Assembly: GCF_004361735.1 (NCBI RefSeq)
Contig: NZ_SNVV01000021.1
Location: 1 to 64,000, forward strand
Source of the DNA: Azoarcus indigens
GTDB lineage: Bacteria > Pseudomonadota > Gammaproteobacteria > Burkholderiales > Rhodocyclaceae
Direction of reading: 5' to 3'
Length of the DNA stretch: 64,000 bases
A program made the translations under genes and the position numbers. The notes below the pieces were generated by a model, which searched no databases, was not told where the DNA came from, and saw nothing but the letters and a program-made list of their open reading frames with translations. Every line of letters starts with the position of its first letter. Position 1 is the stretch's first letter. Of this stretch, positions 6,040 through 60,695 are shown in pieces.

Positions 6040-7854
<1,815 letters not shown>

Positions 7855-7875
7855 TCCCCGCCAGGCGCGGGATGA

Positions 7876-7905
7876 AAAAAGGCGCTGCCGCGGCAGCGCC
7901 TTTTT
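7876..7905. terminator. Bidirectional terminator between typA and galU
   Basis: This is a perfect 30-base palindrome: AAAAAGGCGCTGCCG (7876-7890) followed directly by its reverse complement (7891-7905), continuing into CTTTTT. The A run on one side and T run on the other let it act for typA on the plus strand and galU on the minus strand, which converge here. Confidence 0.92.
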
Positions 7906-7954
7906 CTTTTTGCGGAGCTGGCGGACGCTCCCTGCGCCGCCAGCCCGCTCCGCC

Positions 7955-8830
7955 TCAGCCGCGGGTGGCGAGATACTCGCCGAAGTCGCCGCCGATTTCC
8001 GGATGGCGCAGCCCCAGTTCCACCGTCGCCTTCAGGTAGCCCAGCTTGGAGCCGCAGTCGTAGCGCACGCCCTTGAACTGGTAGGCCAGCACCGCTTCCT
8101 CCTTCAGCAGCGAAGCGATGGCGTCGGTGAGCTGCAGCTCGCCGCCGGCGCCCGGCTTCAGCGCGCGCAGGTGATCGAAGATGCGCGGCGTGAGGATGTA
8201 GCGGCCGACCACCGCCTGGGTGGTGGGCGCGTCCTCAGGCTTGGGCTTCTCGACGATGCCGGTGACGCGCTGGGTGTCGCCGTTCTGGTTCTCGGTGCTG
8301 ACGATGCCGTACTGGCGGGTGTCCTCGCGCGGCACGTTCATGGTGCCGAGCACGGAACAGCGGTTGTAGTTGTAGACGTTGGCCATCTGCGCCATCACCG
8401 CCTCGCCGCCGTAATTGTCCAGCAGGTCGTCCGCGAGGATGACGGCAAAGGGCTCTTCGTCGCCGACCACCGCCGAGGCGCACAGCACTGCATGCCCCAG
8501 GCCCAGCGCTTCCGCCTGGCGGATGTAGATGCAGTTCACGCCCTTGGGCACCGTCTTCTTCACCACCTCCAGCAGCTCCTTCTTGCCGCGGGCTTCGAGC
8601 TCGGTTTCCAGCTCGTAGGCCTTGTCGAAGTGGTCTTCGATGGCGCGCTTGGTGCGGCCGGTGATGAAGATCAGGTCGGTGATGCCGGCCGCGACCGCTT
8701 CCTCCACCGCGTACTGGATCAAAGGCTTGTCGACCACCGGCAGCATTTCCTTCGGGCTGGCCTTGGTCGCCGGCAGGAAGCGGGTGCCCATGCCGGCAAC
8801 CGGAAACACCGCCTTGGTAACTTTCTTCAT
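7955..8830 (-). CDS. galU: UTP-glucose-1-phosphate uridylyltransferase
   Basis: The 291-residue nucleotidyltransferase makes UDP-glucose for lipopolysaccharide, exopolysaccharide and glycolipid synthesis. It starts [31 protein letters not shown], the GalU nucleotide-binding signature, and continues with [11 protein letters not shown] and the acidic ILADDLL. The ATG at 8830 is chosen over the far-upstream in-frame start at 8971 because the latter would overlap ligA, and AAGGAG lies 11 bases before 8830. It sits 43 bases after ligA and may be transcribed with the smc-zipA-ligA group. Confidence 0.96.
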
Positions 8831-8873
8831 ATTGCGTACGACTCCTTGTTCCTGCGTTGCGGAGGCCTGAGAT

Positions 8874-10892
<2,019 letters not shown>

Positions 10893-55035: not shown

Positions 55036-56589
55036 TCACCCCGCCAGCGGCACGGGCTCCGGCAGCGGCAACTCATCACCCTGCTTGATCATGAAAACCT
55101 GGTAATGCACCGCCTGGGCAAGCAGGCGCAGGGCGCGCACGCTTACCAGCCGCTGGCCGTCGGCCAGCAGGAACTCGCGCTGTGGCTGGAAATGGCGGCC
55201 CGGCATCAGCAGTACCCGGCCACGGCGCAGGCGCAGCGCCATCTGGTAGCGGCCGTTGGGATGCGAGATCACCGGCATCACCCTCACCGCCTCCGCCTGC
55301 GCGCCGACGAACTCGACGCCGCAACGCAGCTGCAGCCCCTCGCCGGAGAAGCCGACCCAGCGCACCAACCCGGGCCGCCAGGCACCGCCAGCCTCACGCA
55401 GCATCACCAGCTCGCCCGCGCGCAGCGGCTGCTGCGGCGCCTCGCCTTCCAGCTGCACGCCGGAACTGCTCTCGTTGCACACCTGCAGCATCGCCGGCGT
55501 TTCATCTTCTCCGGCGCCCTCCAGCTCCAGCGGTAGTCCCTGGAAGGCCAGCGACGCCTCGCCCGCCTCTGCCTGCAGTGCCCGCCAGCAATGCGCCAGG
55601 CCCACCCTCAACTCCACTTGCATCAAGCGCAACTGGCGCCGGCGCGGGTGACGCCGCCGCGGCGGACTCAGCCATTCCCGCTGCAAGCGCAACAGCAACT
55701 GCAACTCCTGGGGAGAGGCGAACTCGCCGTTCTGCAGCGTCGCCATCCGTGCGCTCAGGGCGCGGCTCACCGGTGCCAGATCCACCAGCCACCAGCTCGC
55801 CTCGGCGCCGCCGACTGGCAGCTCATCCACGAACTGCGGCGGCAGATCGGCGTCATCGCGGAAAACGAAGGCACCCGGAATGTCCGGCACATCGCGGATG
55901 CGCTGCAGGCGCAAGCCGGGCGCCTCGCGCTCCACCAGCGCGATCAGGTTCTCTATCCATTGCGGGTCCAGCCGATTGGCCGCGTTCATGCCCAGCAACA
56001 GGATGCGACGGTACAGCTCGCCCAGCCGAGCACCGTCGCTGCCGCCGCCATCCGGCTTGCGATAACGCTCCCACCCCTGTTCGGCGATGCAGGCGAAAAG
56101 CTGGTGGCAATCGCGCCAGAAGCCGTCCGGCAGGGCGCTGTAGCTGCGCGCATGGGCACACTGCAGGCGCCAGGCGCTGAGCAGCGCACCCGCCAGCGCC
56201 TGGCGCACCGGGCTGCGCCGGAAGAAGCGGCCCGCGTCGCGGCCAAGGTCCACCGCCACCCGCTTGTAACTGGTGTGTAGGCAAAGCAGCAGTTGCTGCG
56301 CCAGCACCGCCGCATGGCGTGCCGCCAGCACCGAGGCCGCGGGTCCGGCACGCGCGGCGTCCAGCAGCGGCGGCAGCACGCTCTGCAGAGCGTGTTCATG
56401 CTGTTGCAGCATCTGCAGGCGGGCTCCGGGGTCGGCGGTGAACATCACCGGCGCTTCCAGCGCGTCGAGCAGTTCCATGCCGTCGACGATATGCGCCGAC
56501 TCCCTGCCGCCGTAAGCCGGCGGCATCGCCACCCCATCCTCGTCCAGCAAGGGCTGTCTGGTCAGCGAAGCCAGGTTGAGTCGAATCAT
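55036..56589 (-). CDS. Uncharacterised protein with C-terminal PilZ-like domain
   Basis: The 517-residue protein has no signal peptide or membrane segment. Residues about 40-300 are mainly helical and unrecognised. From about 305 it resembles a PilZ domain: an Arg-rich RRRHPRRR block (311-318) corresponds to the RxxxR motif and NESSSG (372-377) to the D/NxSxxG motif that binds c-di-GMP. A second beta-rich stretch (SHPNGRYQMALRLRRGRVLLMPG) follows. This suggests a c-di-GMP effector, which fits the two diguanylate-cyclase genes in the window. The ATG at 56589 is preferred to an upstream GTG (56643). It is convergent with dnaE2. Confidence 0.65.
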   Translation of the reverse strand: MIRLNLASLTRQPLLDEDGVAMPPAYGGRESAHIVDGMELLDALEAPVMFTADPGARLQMLQQHEHALQSVLPPLLDAARAGPAASVLAARHAAVLAQQLLLCLHTSYKRVAVDLGRDAGRFFRRSPVRQALAGALLSAWRLQCAHARSYSALPDGFWRDCHQLFACIAEQGWERYRKPDGGGSDGARLGELYRRILLLGMNAANRLDPQWIENLIALVEREAPGLRLQRIRDVPDIPGAFVFRDDADLPPQFVDELPVGGAEASWWLVDLAPVSRALSARMATLQNGEFASPQELQLLLRLQREWLSPPRRRHPRRRQLRLMQVELRVGLAHCWRALQAEAGEASLAFQGLPLELEGAGEDETPAMLQVCNESSSGVQLEGEAPQQPLRAGELVMLREAGGAWRPGLVRWVGFSGEGLQLRCGVEFVGAQAEAVRVMPVISHPNGRYQMALRLRRGRVLLMPGRHFQPQREFLLADGQRLVSVRALRLLAQAVHYQVFMIKQGDELPLPEPVPLAG

Positions 56590-56722
56590 GATGGCGCGGC
56601 TTCCGGTTACGGCGGGATTTCCTGCAAAGGAAAGGGCGACCACCGCCGGCGATACTTAATCCGGCCGTGGTCGCCCCAGACCGCGGCCGGGAAAGCGACC
56701 GCTGTCGCAGCTGCAGCGGTGC

Positions 56723-57889
56723 CTACTTCTTGCTCTTGCCCTTGGGTACCACCGGCAGCGCATTCAGCAGCGCCAGCAGTTCGCCCTTACCGCGCGTCGC
56801 CAGCAGGCTCAGGCCGGCGCGCAGCAATTCGGACTTGGTGCTCTCGCGGCCGGCCTTCAGCAGATCCGCCCGCAACTGCTTGAGCTGCGCATGCTCATGC
56901 TTGGGCAGGGAGAAAGAATCCCGCACCACTTTCTCCCGCTTGCCCGCCTTGCCAGCCTTGGCCTTGTCAGCCGGCTTGGCCTTTGTGACCACGCCCGCCT
57001 CCGCGGCCTGCGCCTTGACCGGGGTGGCGGGCTGCGGCCTGGCAACGCCTGCAGTCTTGACCACCTTGCCGCTCTTCGCCGAGGCCCCTGCAGACGTAGA
57101 TGCCTTCTTGGCCGTGCTGGTGGAAGCGGCGGGCTTCTTCACTGCGGCAGCCTTGCCCGCGGTGGCAGCCGCAGTGACCGGCTTGCCCACGGCGGCGGCA
57201 GCCTTGGCGCCATTGCCGGAGGCTGCCTTGGCTGGCGCCGGGGCAACCGGGGCAGCCGTTTTGGATCCAGGTGTCGACGTGGCTTGAACCGCGGGTTTCA
57301 CCGCCGGCTTGCCCTCGGCGCCGTTGGGCCGCGCCTTCGCCGCCCGGGGCGCCGGCTTGGAGGAGGCTCCGGCAGCGGGCTTGGATGAAGTCTTGGAGTT
57401 GGGTTTCGCGGCCGGCGTGGCGGCAGCCGTGGAAGGGAGCTTGGGCGTGGCCTTGCTCGCGGGCATCTTGGAGGCTGCCGGTTTTGCTGCGCTACGCCCG
57501 CCCGTGGCAGGCTTGCCTGCGGCGGGCTTGGCCGGGCTGGCTTTGGCCGGCACGGCTGTGGTCGCCGCCTTCGTCCCCGCAGCTTTGACCGCCACTGCAG
57601 CGGCAGGCTGAGCCGCAGCCGGCGGCCTCACCTGGCCGGCCTCCACAGGCTTGGTTCCTGCACCCTGGACCGCAGCATCCGCCGCCTTGGCCGCTGGCGC
57701 CCCCGCCTTCGCTGTGGCCGGCTTGCCCGCCGCCTTTGCTGTGGCCGGCTTGCCCGCCGCCTTCACTGCCGCATCCGCCTTTGGCGCAGCAGGCCTGGGG
57801 CTGGCCGGCCGCTTCTTCGCGGTCGCGGTGCCCGCCTGCTTGTCCTGTCCTGCGGCCTGCTCCGCCGCCTTGCCATTCTCCGCTGCCAT
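56723..57889 (-). CDS. Ala/Lys/Pro-rich histone H1-like protein with RHH-like C-terminus
   Basis: The 388-residue protein has a low-complexity N-terminal three quarters built from Ala, Lys, Pro, Thr and Gly (AAGKPATAK-type repeats), like AlgP and bacterial histone H1-like proteins that bind DNA and compact the nucleoid. The last 90 residues are different and ordered: VRDSFSLPKHEHAQLKQLRADL and STKSELLRAGLSLLA, a pattern like a ribbon-helix-helix DNA-binding fold. GGAGAG precedes the ATG. The repeats include a 27-base tandem duplication. Codon third positions are less GC-biased than in neighbours. Nucleoid or regulatory function is inference. Confidence 0.75.
   Translation of the reverse strand: MAAENGKAAEQAAGQDKQAGTATAKKRPASPRPAAPKADAAVKAAGKPATAKAAGKPATAKAGAPAAKAADAAVQGAGTKPVEAGQVRPPAAAQPAAAVAVKAAGTKAATTAVPAKASPAKPAAGKPATGGRSAAKPAASKMPASKATPKLPSTAAATPAAKPNSKTSSKPAAGASSKPAPRAAKARPNGAEGKPAVKPAVQATSTPGSKTAAPVAPAPAKAASGNGAKAAAAVGKPVTAAATAGKAAAVKKPAASTSTAKKASTSAGASAKSGKVVKTAGVARPQPATPVKAQAAEAGVVTKAKPADKAKAGKAGKREKVVRDSFSLPKHEHAQLKQLRADLLKAGRESTKSELLRAGLSLLATRGKGELLALLNALPVVPKGKSKK
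57711..57764. repeat. 27-base tandem duplication in the histone-like gene
   Basis: Two adjacent 27-base units (57711-57737 and 57738-57764) differ at one base. Each codes for the nine residues of an AGKPATAKA-type repeat. Unit number could vary among strains by slippage or recombination. Confidence 0.85.
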
Positions 57890-58130
57890 GTCAGCTCTCC
57901 TGTGATTCCTTGCCTTAGGTCTATCCGGTCCGATTCCCCTTTAGCCTGACGGCATGGATCGGGCGGAGCCAGGGATGGGGTAATACCATAAGGCCGAAAA
58001 CCGGCGCTACCTTGCCCCGCAGCAATGCGTGCGACAGGGCTTTTGAGGACGGCCTGGTTTTGATATTTCGCAAATGCGAAGCATCTCCCCCTCGCTAGTC
58101 TTCCGGCCTACCCAAACCGGAATAGCGCGC

Positions 58131-60695
58131 ATGAATCTCAGAGGCTTCATCCTTGCCACCTCCGCCGCCGTCGGCATCGTTTTCCTTGGCGGCAGCTGGT
58201 TGGCGATAGGCCAGGCCTTCGATTCCGCGTTCAGCACCCACGCCCGCAGCCAGGCGAACGAGGCCGCCCGCCTCAGTTTCGCCGCCATGTACGTCGTCAT
58301 GAGCCAGGGCTGGAGCCGCGCCCAGGCGGAAGAGTTTCTTGCCGGCGTGCACGGCGATGGTGTCGGGAATGGCCTGCGGGTCGCCATCTTCCGCGGGCCC
58401 GCGGTGGAAGCGCGCTACGGCAGCATCGCCCAGCCGGCGCCCGGCCAGCTCGTGCGGCGCGCCCTCGAATACGGCGAGTCCACCGATAAGCTGGAAGAAG
58501 GCGAGTTCCGCAGCGTGCACGCGCTGAAGGCGGAACCCCGCTGCCTCGCCTGCCACGACAATGTCCGCAGCGGCGATGTGCTCGGCGCCATCGAGGTGAC
58601 CCAGCCCTATGCCAAGGTACTGCAGGACGTGCGCTTCGGCTTCTACACCACCGCGGTGCCCAGCCTGCTGTTCGGCCTGCTGCTGGCGGGCGCGGCGGTG
58701 TGGTGGGTCAGCCGCAGGATTGCCGGCAGCGTCAGCGAGGTCGAGCGCAGCCTGGAATCCATCAACAAGGTGGCCGATCTGCGCCATCTGATGCCGCGTG
58801 CGCGGCCGGACAGCTTCACCGAGATCGAGCGCATGCACGACGCCATCGCCGGCCTCGCCGCCCGCCTGCGCACCATCGCGGTGGACAAGGACATCCTGCT
58901 GTTCGAGATCGGCCTGCTGGAGAAATTCGTCATCACCTCGGAAGTGATACGCGACTGGCGCGCCTACGTCGGCAAGCTGCTGCAGGAGATCAACGCCATC
59001 GTCGACGCCCGGGTGTTGTTCTCGGTGTTCCAGATCGACGACGAGCTGTTCGACATCGAGATTTTCTGGCACGCACTGCCGGACGAAGCCATCCGCAAGC
59101 ACATCGAGCAGACGGTGCACGAGACCCTCCGCGCCGACACCCGCTTCAGCGAACCGGCCACGCTGAACATCCATCACCACTACCCCGACGCCGCAGACAA
59201 CGCCCCCACCATCAGCAGCAGCGATCTCACGCTGAGGGTGAAATCCTTCTTTGTCGATCGCCCCAAGATCGGCAGCATCGTCGGCATCGGCGTTCATTCC
59301 GGTGGCATGTTGGAGCAGACGCACAACCTGGTGATCGACTCCATCCTCTCCACCCTGCTCAACGTGGTGGGCTCCATCAAGGCCATCCACAAGTACACCC
59401 GCGACCTGGAGTACTACGCCACCCGGGATCCGCTGACCGACCTCTACAACCAGCGGGTGTTCTGGGAGCTGCTGGGCTACGAGGTGGACCGCTGCCGCCG
59501 CCACGACAGCGCCGCCACCCTGCTGGTGATCGACCTCGACAACTTCAAGCTGATCAACGACCACTACGGCCATGCCACCGGCGACCACTACCTGCAGCAG
59601 TTCGCCACCGCCATCCGCGATGCCCTGCGCAGCGGCGATGTGCTGGCACGCTACGGTGGCGACGAGTTCGTCGTCATCCTGCCGGAGACCCAGCTCGAAC
59701 AGGGATACACCCTGGCGCGCCGGGTGCTGGAAACCACCCGCCAGCTGACGGTGGACGCCCCCAACGGCGACGCGATACGCGCCACTGTCTCCATCGGCCT
59801 GGCGGTGTTCCCCGACCATGCAACCTCGGCCAAAGACCTCTTCCTGTTCGCCGACAACATGATGTACCGCGCCAAGAACGAGGGTAAGGAACGGGTGGTG
59901 CTGCCGACCACCGAGGATGTGATGGCGGTATTCCGTGACGTCTCCGAGATGAGCATGGCGGTGCTGGCGGCGGTGAACGAGCGCCGCGTGATTCCCTTCT
60001 TCCAGCCCATCATGGCGGTTCAGTCCGGCGGCATCGCGGCCGTGGAGGTGCTGTCGCGGCTGGAAGTCGGCGGCCAGCTGATGCGCGCCGACCAGTTCAT
60101 CGAGATTGCCGAGAAGATAGGCGTGATCCATCGGCTGGACGCCATCGTCATCGAAGCCGCGCTGGAGAAGGTGCGCCAGAGCGACTACAGCGGCTACATC
60201 TTCTTCAACCTGTCGCCGCGCGCCCTGGTGCTGGCCGAGTTCGCCCGCACGCTGCGCACCGTGGTGCGCAATTCCGGCATCGCGCCGGAACGCATCGTGT
60301 TCGAGATCACCGAGCGCGACACGGTGAAGAACCTGTCGCTGCTGGAGCGCTTCATCGTCGACCTCCGCTCGGAGGGCTTCCGCCTCGCCATCGACGATTT
60401 CGGTTCCGGCTTCTCCTCCTTCCACTACCTGCGCCGCTTTCCCTTCGACTTCCTGAAGATCGAGGGCGACTTCATCGCCAACATGATCCACAGCGAGCGT
60501 GACCGCATCTTCGTCCAGAGCATCACCGAGCTGGCGCGGGCGCTGAAGATCGAAGTGGTGGCGGAATTCGTGGAATCGGCCGAAGTGCTGGCACTGCTGG
60601 AGGACTTCGGCATCGACTACGCGCAGGGCTACCACGTGGGCCGGCCGGATCGGGAAATCCTCATCCATCGCCCCCAGCCGGAGGCCAACTACTAG
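58131..60695 (+). CDS. Membrane GGDEF-EAL protein with periplasmic c-type haem motif
   Basis: The 854-residue protein has a first membrane segment (7-27), a periplasmic region (28-168) with CLACH at 138-142 (a CxxCH haem-attachment motif), a second membrane segment (170-192), a HAMP-like linker, a GAF-like region (about 260-420), and cytoplasmic GGDEF and EAL domains. GGDEF is intact (509-513) with an I-site RSGD (500-503). EAL residues E639 (EVL variant), N693, E725, D755/D756, K776, E812 and Q832 are present, so both synthesis and hydrolysis of c-di-GMP are possible. It probably senses redox state or a gas. ATG at 58131. Own transcription unit. Confidence 0.9.
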   Translation: MNLRGFILATSAAVGIVFLGGSWLAIGQAFDSAFSTHARSQANEAARLSFAAMYVVMSQGWSRAQAEEFLAGVHGDGVGNGLRVAIFRGPAVEARYGSIAQPAPGQLVRRALEYGESTDKLEEGEFRSVHALKAEPRCLACHDNVRSGDVLGAIEVTQPYAKVLQDVRFGFYTTAVPSLLFGLLLAGAAVWWVSRRIAGSVSEVERSLESINKVADLRHLMPRARPDSFTEIERMHDAIAGLAARLRTIAVDKDILLFEIGLLEKFVITSEVIRDWRAYVGKLLQEINAIVDARVLFSVFQIDDELFDIEIFWHALPDEAIRKHIEQTVHETLRADTRFSEPATLNIHHHYPDAADNAPTISSSDLTLRVKSFFVDRPKIGSIVGIGVHSGGMLEQTHNLVIDSILSTLLNVVGSIKAIHKYTRDLEYYATRDPLTDLYNQRVFWELLGYEVDRCRRHDSAATLLVIDLDNFKLINDHYGHATGDHYLQQFATAIRDALRSGDVLARYGGDEFVVILPETQLEQGYTLARRVLETTRQLTVDAPNGDAIRATVSIGLAVFPDHATSAKDLFLFADNMMYRAKNEGKERVVLPTTEDVMAVFRDVSEMSMAVLAAVNERRVIPFFQPIMAVQSGGIAAVEVLSRLEVGGQLMRADQFIEIAEKIGVIHRLDAIVIEAALEKVRQSDYSGYIFFNLSPRALVLAEFARTLRTVVRNSGIAPERIVFEITERDTVKNLSLLERFIVDLRSEGFRLAIDDFGSGFSSFHYLRRFPFDFLKIEGDFIANMIHSERDRIFVQSITELARALKIEVVAEFVESAEVLALLEDFGIDYAQGYHVGRPDREILIHRPQPEANY

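Follow-up and report, generated by a model that had tools for sequence, protein, structure and literature searches.

A GGDEF-EAL protein of Azoarcus indigens with a predicted haem c Cache sensor in the periplasm

The gene, its relatives and its sensor domain

The window analysed here is a 64,000-nucleotide stretch of the Azoarcus indigens genome (contig NZ_SNVV01000021.1, positions 1 to 64,000 of the forward strand), and our subject is a gene near its end that encodes a GGDEF-EAL protein with a CxxCH haem attachment motif in its N-terminal part. The open reading frame (ORF) at 58131-60695 encodes 854 residues and has no internal stops. The ORF finder placed its start at 58074; we preferred 58131 because the alignments of relatives almost always begin at residues 1-3 counted from this position. 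The best reading of the sequence is that the protein would bind a covalent haem c in the periplasm and couple it to turnover of cyclic diguanylate (c-di-GMP). The gene and its parts, all on the plus strand, are the following.

58131-60695, plus: gene for an 854-residue haem-Cache / GAF-like / GGDEF / EAL protein (ORF and Pfam)
58146-58208, plus: membrane helix 1, about residues 6-26 (hydropathy and AlphaFold2 (AF2) model, where it is continuous with the sensor's long first helix, residues 3-58)
58209-58643, plus: haem-Cache sensor domain, predicted to be periplasmic, roughly residues 27-171 (3b42 and 3b47 matched by profile; Foldseek; AF2 model)
58299-58301, plus: M57 codon, the residue being the predicted sixth (distal) ligand of the haem (conservation; alignment with Met60 of GSU0935)
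58542-58556, plus: C138-L-A-C141-H142, putative haem c attachment motif with H142 as predicted proximal ligand (conservation; helix 136-140 in the model)
58644-58712, plus: membrane helix 2, about residues 172-194 (hydropathy and AF2)
58713-58895, plus: HAMP-like helical linker, about residues 195-255 (helices in the model)
58908-59405, plus: GAF-like middle module, about residues 260-425 (fold comparison)
59418-59894, plus: GGDEF domain, residues 430-588 (Pfam PF00990, 158.7 bits)
59628-59639, plus: RSGD inhibitory site (RxxD), residues 500-503, five residues ahead of GGDEF (R500 in 79 and D503 in 85 of 86 alignment rows)
59967-60647, plus: EAL domain, residues 613-839 (Pfam PF00563, 208.8 bits; residues kept)

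A preliminary description of the locus had placed C138-x-x-C141-H142 between two membrane segments, and the residues occupy exactly those positions. By hydropathy, two predicted membrane segments (roughly residues 1-30 and 172-194) flank the motif, which is thus extracytoplasmic by prediction. The only cysteine outside the motif is C455, and 0.0003 CxxCH motifs would be expected by composition per 850 positions. A scan of genome contigs returned 97 relatives, 80 of which were retained; these include proteins from Azoarcus, Thauera, Pseudothauera, Denitromonas, Aromatoleum, Guyparkeria, Thioalkalivibrio, Nitrospirae, Aquificaceae, Desulfobulbaceae and Oryzomonas. Together with the window protein and five further relatives they form a full-length alignment of 86 rows. 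The preliminary description had proposed looking for loss of the motif in close orthologues; both cysteines and the histidine are retained in 82 of the 86 rows (the window protein and 81 of the 85 relatives). In a sensor alignment (A1) of 76 rows, selected as motif-holding and with identity down to 20%, the only invariant columns were M57, C138, C141, H142 and G152.

Homology of the sensor to haem-bearing domains was detected with a profile built from A1. Against PDB sequences, hmmsearch matched 3b42 (GSU0935; E 2.9e-6) and 3b47 (GSU0582; E 2.7e-5), both chemoreceptors of Geobacter sulfurreducens, and the rows after these two had E values of 0.01 or weaker. The designed repeat protein 7rdr, which also matched the profile, was dismissed as it showed no individually significant stretch. 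In the hmmsearch alignment, C138, C141, H142 and M57 correspond to 3b42 residues 106, 109, 110 and 26. The haem of GSU0935 is held by Cys140, Cys143, His144 and Met60 (PMC8396549; here and below, papers are cited by PMC accession for the portions of their text available to us). The offset of 34 is common to all four residues, and M57 therefore corresponds to Met60, the switchable sixth ligand of GSU0935. In both GSU0935 and GSU0582 the methionine is ligated when the haem is reduced and released on oxidation, and nitric oxide (NO) or carbon monoxide (CO) displaces it from the reduced haem (PMC8396549). We predict that M57 acts as an on/off ligand in the same manner. Across the 86 rows its column holds methionine in 83, leucine in one and a gap in two, and its invariance over the 76 rows of A1 is the main new support for a ligand switch.

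The AF2 model of residues 1-200 (mean predicted local distance difference test score (pLDDT) 87.6) contains a strand at 125-133, a short helix at 136-140 that carries the CxxCH motif, and a second strand at 150-159. A motif in a short inter-strand helix is typical of haem-Cache (sCache_heme, Tll0287) domains. The first four Foldseek ranks were 3b42_B (E 1.3e-4), 3b47 (6.5e-4), 3b42_A (1.4e-3) and 5b82, the structure of Tll0287 (1.4e-2). The TM-scores normalised by query were low (0.28-0.35), which we attribute to domain swapping in the crystals and to the pair of membrane helices in the query. VIA-align gave Z 9.5 for 5b82 (root mean square deviation (rmsd) 4.1 over 125) and Z 6.4 for 3b42_B (rmsd 2.9 over 73). 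In Pfam searches with the full protein, the N-terminal part matched Tll0287-like (15 bits) and Mcp40H-20_sensor (13 bits), both below cut-off, and PF11845 matched 67 of the 76 sensor members at E <=1 (best 5.2e-6).

The middle module and the GGDEF-EAL output

The region between membrane helix 2 and the GGDEF domain (residues 196-425) of the window protein matched no Pfam family, HAMP included; a HAMP match occurred in one of 80 members of set A2 (E 0.069), and a GAF_NLP match in one of 80 members (E 0.049). The model of the middle module was of middling quality (pLDDT 69), and its best Foldseek matches, to phytochromes, were weak (E 7.3e-3). VIA-align aligned it with phytochrome photosensory modules (Z 9.6) and with DosP chain 9bkv (Z 9.5, rmsd 2.9 over 124 residues), although a Z of about 9.5 may reflect merely a common arrangement; LuxR-type and NifA GAF domains followed at Z 7.5-8.7. 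A profile of the module gave no significant match to the DosP sequence. With no Pfam match, a weak model and a non-significant DosP comparison, we base the label "GAF-like" on fold comparison. The same genome encodes a sensor-less paralogue (L100) with this module (E 9.7e-19) ahead of its own GGDEF-EAL pair.

The preliminary description had held both catalytic domains to be intact. The GGDEF residues are present at 509-513 and the RSGD inhibitory site at 500-503; a second RSGD, at residue 146, is unrelated to this site. In the EAL domain, E639, N693, E725, D755, D756, K776, E812 and Q832, which we take to be the catalytic residues, are all in place. The KxD position differs, reading KIE, and two further signatures vary, "EAL" being EVL and EGVE being EFVE. 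Across the alignment, N693 is kept in 86 of 86 rows, E725, K776, E812 and Q832 in 85/85, D755 in 84/85 and E639 in 85/86, with D756 altered in 4/85; in the GGDEF domain G509, G510, D511 and F513 are kept in all 86 rows and E512 in 84.

The nearest solved GGDEF-EAL pair is that of RbdA (PDB 5xgb; E 5.7e-69), which has the EFVE form in common with the window protein and whose GGDEF domain is a GTP-binding activator. LapD and FimX likewise match the catalytic part. RbdA has been classed as a phosphodiesterase (PMC8846402), and we lean, by a little, towards a net phosphodiesterase activity for the window protein as well.

Related proteins, genomic setting and sources of the signal

The A. indigens genome encodes further haem-Cache proteins. 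Besides a stand-alone Tll0287-like protein, we identified a haem-Cache chemoreceptor (locus L097 on contig C17; 508-2205 of the locus, minus strand) with the motif CVMCH (sensor E 1.0e-13, MCPsignal 127 bits) and a 621-residue haem-Cache diguanylate cyclase (locus L098 on contig C13; 1495-3357 of the locus) with the motif CLQCH (sensor E 1.2e-10), which has a methionine at the position aligned with M57. The L098 cyclase, which has relatives in L032, L060, L063, L064, L065 and L070, contains a Cys-rich stretch between HAMP and GGDEF that in L098 and L063 reads CRWCD...DMC...GICYAF...HYC.

Around the 80 related genes we searched flanks of up to 8 kb, many of them cut, for a total of 1.17 Mb. A second CxxCH ORF matching the sensor profile was found in 12 of the 80 loci, 0.06-4.2 kb from the GGDEF-EAL gene. 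The expected number is 0.4 if two others per 5.46 Mb, as in the A. indigens genome, is the general density; other genomes may hold more. The nearby ORFs are GGDEF proteins in six loci (L032, L060, L063, L064, L065 and L070), five of which are close relatives, and are of the methyl-accepting chemotaxis protein (MCP) type in the other six (L038, L050, L057, L066, L073 and L088), the MCP-domain match of L057 lying below cut-off at the end of its contig. In the Aromatoleum locus L063, the cyclase and GGDEF-EAL genes are separated by a glutathione-peroxidase-like gene and a gene for a small membrane protein with a weak methyltransferase match (6512-7869). NnrU was considered for an intervening Aromatoleum ORF and rejected, as Pfam gave no match and NCBIfam instead gave a weak match to methanethiol methyltransferase.

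The GGDEF-EAL query, made up of residues 1-425, matched in 57 of 199 genomes of the family (E <=1e-40), and the cyclase query in 49. Both matched in 25 genomes against 14 expected (Fisher p 1.2e-4, uncorrected for kinship). The 57 include partial or two-piece matches in G075, G153 and G165; in G075 (C1:1443963-1448266) the orthologue lies in two pieces about 3 kb apart, one with the sensor part and one from residue 228 on, and an insertion is likely. G012, G121, G156, G185 and G209 each have two haem-Cache GGDEF-EAL query matches, on separate contigs.

For cytochrome c assembly and sources of NO we compared 50 of the 80 relatives' genomes, chosen for spread, with 14 control genomes; drafts among them may miss genes. 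The cytochrome c assembly family PF01578 was over cut-off in all 50 genomes, which is weak support, as 8 of the 14 controls pass as well. CcmF is present in the A. indigens genome and in five of the 14 controls. Three Cytochrom_D1 matches, of the NirS type, were over cut-off in A. indigens. NirS-type matches were strong (E < 1e-80) in 29 of the 50 genomes, weaker in four and absent in 17, with one of the 14 controls over cut-off. For NirK (TIGR02376), 37 of the 50 matched at E 0.001, mostly over a short stretch, and none was over cut-off (controls 7/14 and 1/14). Long sub-cut-off NirK-like matches covering most of the model (E 1e-38 to 1e-56) were found in G220, G222, G225, G227, G236, G237 and G238, three of which have no NirS; these may be divergent nitrite reductases. 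Eighteen of the 50 genomes, including Guyparkeria, Oryzomonas and Desulfobulbaceae, had neither a strong NirS-type nor a long NirK-like match. With strong NirS-type matches in only 29 genomes and neither enzyme in 18, self-made NO is possible in A. indigens and not general, and the remaining genomes would require redox sensing or external NO. The two Halorhodospira genomes in the set (those of L085 and L086) contain both cytochrome c assembly and NirS-type genes.

Within the window, the neighbouring genes show no functional link to the GGDEF-EAL gene; they encode a DNA polymerase III alpha-type protein, a Cys/Met metabolism enzyme, a pterin dehydratase, a DUF748 protein and two Pfam-less ORFs. 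Of the latter, that at 56723-57889 (minus strand) encodes 388 lysine/alanine-rich residues and that at 55036-56643 (minus strand) encodes 535 residues, one stretch of which looks PilZ-like by eye. Scans for promoters (one site, minus strand, against 0.6 expected) and terminators (one site, minus strand, against 2.1 expected) were uninformative.

Mechanism, alternatives and relation to known systems

We consider it very probable that this c-di-GMP enzyme carries a haem-c-based redox and/or NO sensor; this estimate applies to the sensor and leaves the later steps of signalling aside. The preliminary description had proposed that a periplasmic redox or gas signal is coupled to c-di-GMP turnover. 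Homology to c-haem domains and the strict conservation of both cysteines, the histidine and M57 support this proposal, within which haem attachment and the ligands follow from homology, and we infer the nature of the signal, the direction of the output and the net activity. The protein would be a transmembrane one-component c-di-GMP enzyme whose single outer Cache domain holds one haem c. C138 and C141 would form the thioether links, H142 would be the proximal iron ligand and M57, by homology, the distal one. In the reduced state, with His/Met-ligated iron, the protein would be quiet. Oxidation of the iron, or displacement of the methionine by NO (or CO), would free M57 on the long first helix and shift this helix. 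The shift would travel by way of membrane helix 2, HAMP-like coil and GAF-like module, reach the GGDEF-EAL pair and alter net c-di-GMP turnover, most likely through the phosphodiesterase activity of the EAL domain, with the GGDEF domain serving as a GTP-binding regulator.

Several observations weigh against this interpretation. The motif is missing from four of the 86 rows: from L091, where the contig end cuts the gene; from L081 (Aromatoleum anaerobium, ORF 7602-9938), where about 110 sensor residues including the haem motif are gone in frame and both membrane helices are kept, which points either to a naturally occurring variant without sensor or to an error of assembly; and from L085 and L086 (Halorhodospira), which have a shorter sensor domain without CxxCH. 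The M57 column holds methionine in L085 and leucine in L086, and L085 thus keeps M57 without the motif. A phmmer search of solved structures with the N-terminal 220 residues alone returned chance matches only, with no haem protein among them, which is why a profile was needed to find the homology. The DUF3365-type profile search suggested in the preliminary description did produce a match, but PF11845 scored the sensor alone at 18.2 bits (E 0.0036), short of the gathering cut-off of 24.1. In VIA-align the haem-free Cache protein WalK scored Z 12.2 (a model entry) and 9.5, equal to or above the 9.5 of Tll0287; the fold therefore indicates a Cache domain, and the haem reading rests on the motif and on sequence homology. 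The AF2 models contain no haem. In crystals of the oxidised Geobacter sensors, the methionine was bound in one of the two GSU0935 haems and in none of those of GSU0582 (PMC8396549). On the output side, the KxD position of the EAL domain is glutamate in the window protein and, over the 85 rows with this column, E in 77, D in six and S in two.

The haem sensor reading has two narrower forms that differ in the signal, and we regard redox and NO as about even. If the protein were a pure redox sensor, oxidation of the iron and the resulting release of M57 alone would set its activity and any binding of NO would be incidental. This is plausible, though short of an even chance. M57 equates to Met60 of GSU0935, whose release on oxidation has been proposed as the trigger, and the redox potentials of the two Geobacter sensors are -156 and -251 mV (PMC8396549). 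The 18 of 50 relatives' genomes with neither a strong NirS-type nor a long NirK-like match also fit redox sensing. Both Geobacter sensors bind NO and CO too, which argues against so strict a form (PMC8396549).

If the haem instead bound only NO, arising from denitrification or from outside, the role put forward for signalling sCache_heme proteins, the protein would be a selective periplasmic NO sensor. This, too, is plausible though short of an even chance. A signalling sCache_heme protein of Pseudomonas azotoformans bound NO, released it slowly and formed no stable O2 complex (PMC12889525), and NO could be at hand given the three Cytochrom_D1 matches of A. indigens and the strong NirS-type matches in 29 of 50 related genomes. 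The proposal is weakened by the 21 of 50 genomes that lack a strong NirS-type match, by NirK over cut-off in none and by the 18 with neither enzyme. An invariant M57 also fits the redox-switched haems of GSU0582 and GSU0935, for which a redox mechanism has been argued (PMC8396549).

We rank low, as improbable, that the GGDEF-EAL pair is a degenerate receptor. It would account for the glutamate of KIE shared by 77 of 85 rows, the altered D756 in four and the matches of LapD and FimX to the catalytic part; against it, the remaining EAL positions are kept (84-86 rows each), as are the GGDEF residues G509, G510, D511 and F513 (86/86) and E512 (84/86). Very improbable is a haem-free redox switch that works through a disulfide between C138 and C141; the CSS-motif phosphodiesterase PdeC is a precedent for such a periplasmic cysteine pair on an EAL enzyme (PMC8846402). 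The histidine beside the second cysteine and M57, both as invariant as the cysteines in A1, would be superfluous in a disulfide switch, and the sensor is homologous to haem-bearing domains; the six Pfam matches found for the window protein include no CSS domain, though a direct comparison with PdeC-type domains was not made.

The closest known relatives of the sensor, GSU0935 and GSU0582 (3b42, 3b47), are like it in homology, in the place of the CxxCH motif and in the aligned His and Met, and are likewise periplasmic between two membrane helices (PMC3460858). As MCPs they contain HAMP and MCP signal domains, whereas the C-terminal portion of the window protein consists of a GAF-like module, GGDEF and EAL. 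The wider sCache_heme family (DUF3365, Tll0287-like, PF11845) is the subject of a preprint (Deshpande et al. 2026, PMC12889525) that lists GGDEF and EAL among its fusion partners; the window protein has in common with it the Cache fold, the CxxCH helix between two strands and the fusion to signalling domains, and differs in falling below the family cut-off. In the available portions of that text neither "methionine" nor "Met60" occurs, whereas M57 is invariant in the window family, and the proteins tested there are one stand-alone and one with HAMP, neither being a c-di-GMP enzyme. DUF3365 with CXXCH has also been noted in the Geobacter histidine kinase GSU0356 (PMC7726332), and the three solved c-haem domains are listed in PMC8694187.

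DosP (PdeO) and DosC (DgcO) of E. coli resemble the A. indigens proteins in joining haem sensing to GGDEF-EAL, in having a middle module that aligns with DosP 9bkv, and in that the A. indigens genome encodes, as a distinct protein, a cyclase whose sensor is of the same class. The haem domains of DosP and DosC are cytoplasmic and contain haem b. Unlike the haem-Cache sensor, DosP and DosC sense O2 through a haem PAS domain and a protoglobin, and RbdA (PA0861, 5xgb), whose catalytic pair is nearest to that of the window protein, senses O2 through a haem PAS domain (PMC8846402). It is conceivable, if doubtful, that the window protein and the L098 cyclase form a periplasmic counterpart of DosC/DosP, in which two haem-c Cache sensors would read one periplasmic redox or NO cue and drive the synthesis and the degradation of c-di-GMP oppositely, and the haem-Cache chemoreceptor would use this cue to steer motility.

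The preliminary description had called such sensors little described. This holds for c-di-GMP enzymes, and less so for the sensor family, whose GGDEF/EAL fusions appear in the 2026 preprint (PMC12889525). A 2022 census of the stimuli of c-di-GMP enzymes gives haem (PAS, protoglobin), haemerythrin, flavin and disulfide as the oxygen and redox sensors, and the available main text contains none of the terms "c-type", "cytochrome" and "DUF3365" (PMC8846402). The available text of a c-di-GMP paper on Azoarcus sp. CIB names no such enzyme (PMC7998248), and in those of PMC6956133 and PMC9237845 the haem-sensor and c-di-GMP terms occur in other contexts. In the literature searched, as far as its text was accessible and with subscription papers outside its scope, we found no c-di-GMP enzyme bearing a c-type haem sensor that had been tested experimentally. 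The haem-Cache kind of sensor, including its GGDEF/EAL fusions, is thus already known (PMC12889525); what we add is the window protein itself, M57 as its predicted ligand, its GAF-like module and a connection with a haem-Cache cyclase.

If the enzyme does carry its haem c sensor on the outside of the membrane, cells could adjust biofilm formation or motility to the redox poise or NO level of the periplasm, the compartment in which the respiratory chains of denitrifiers and sulfur oxidisers operate. The window protein and its conserved relatives offer a concrete, testable case, with M57 as the predicted ligand switch.

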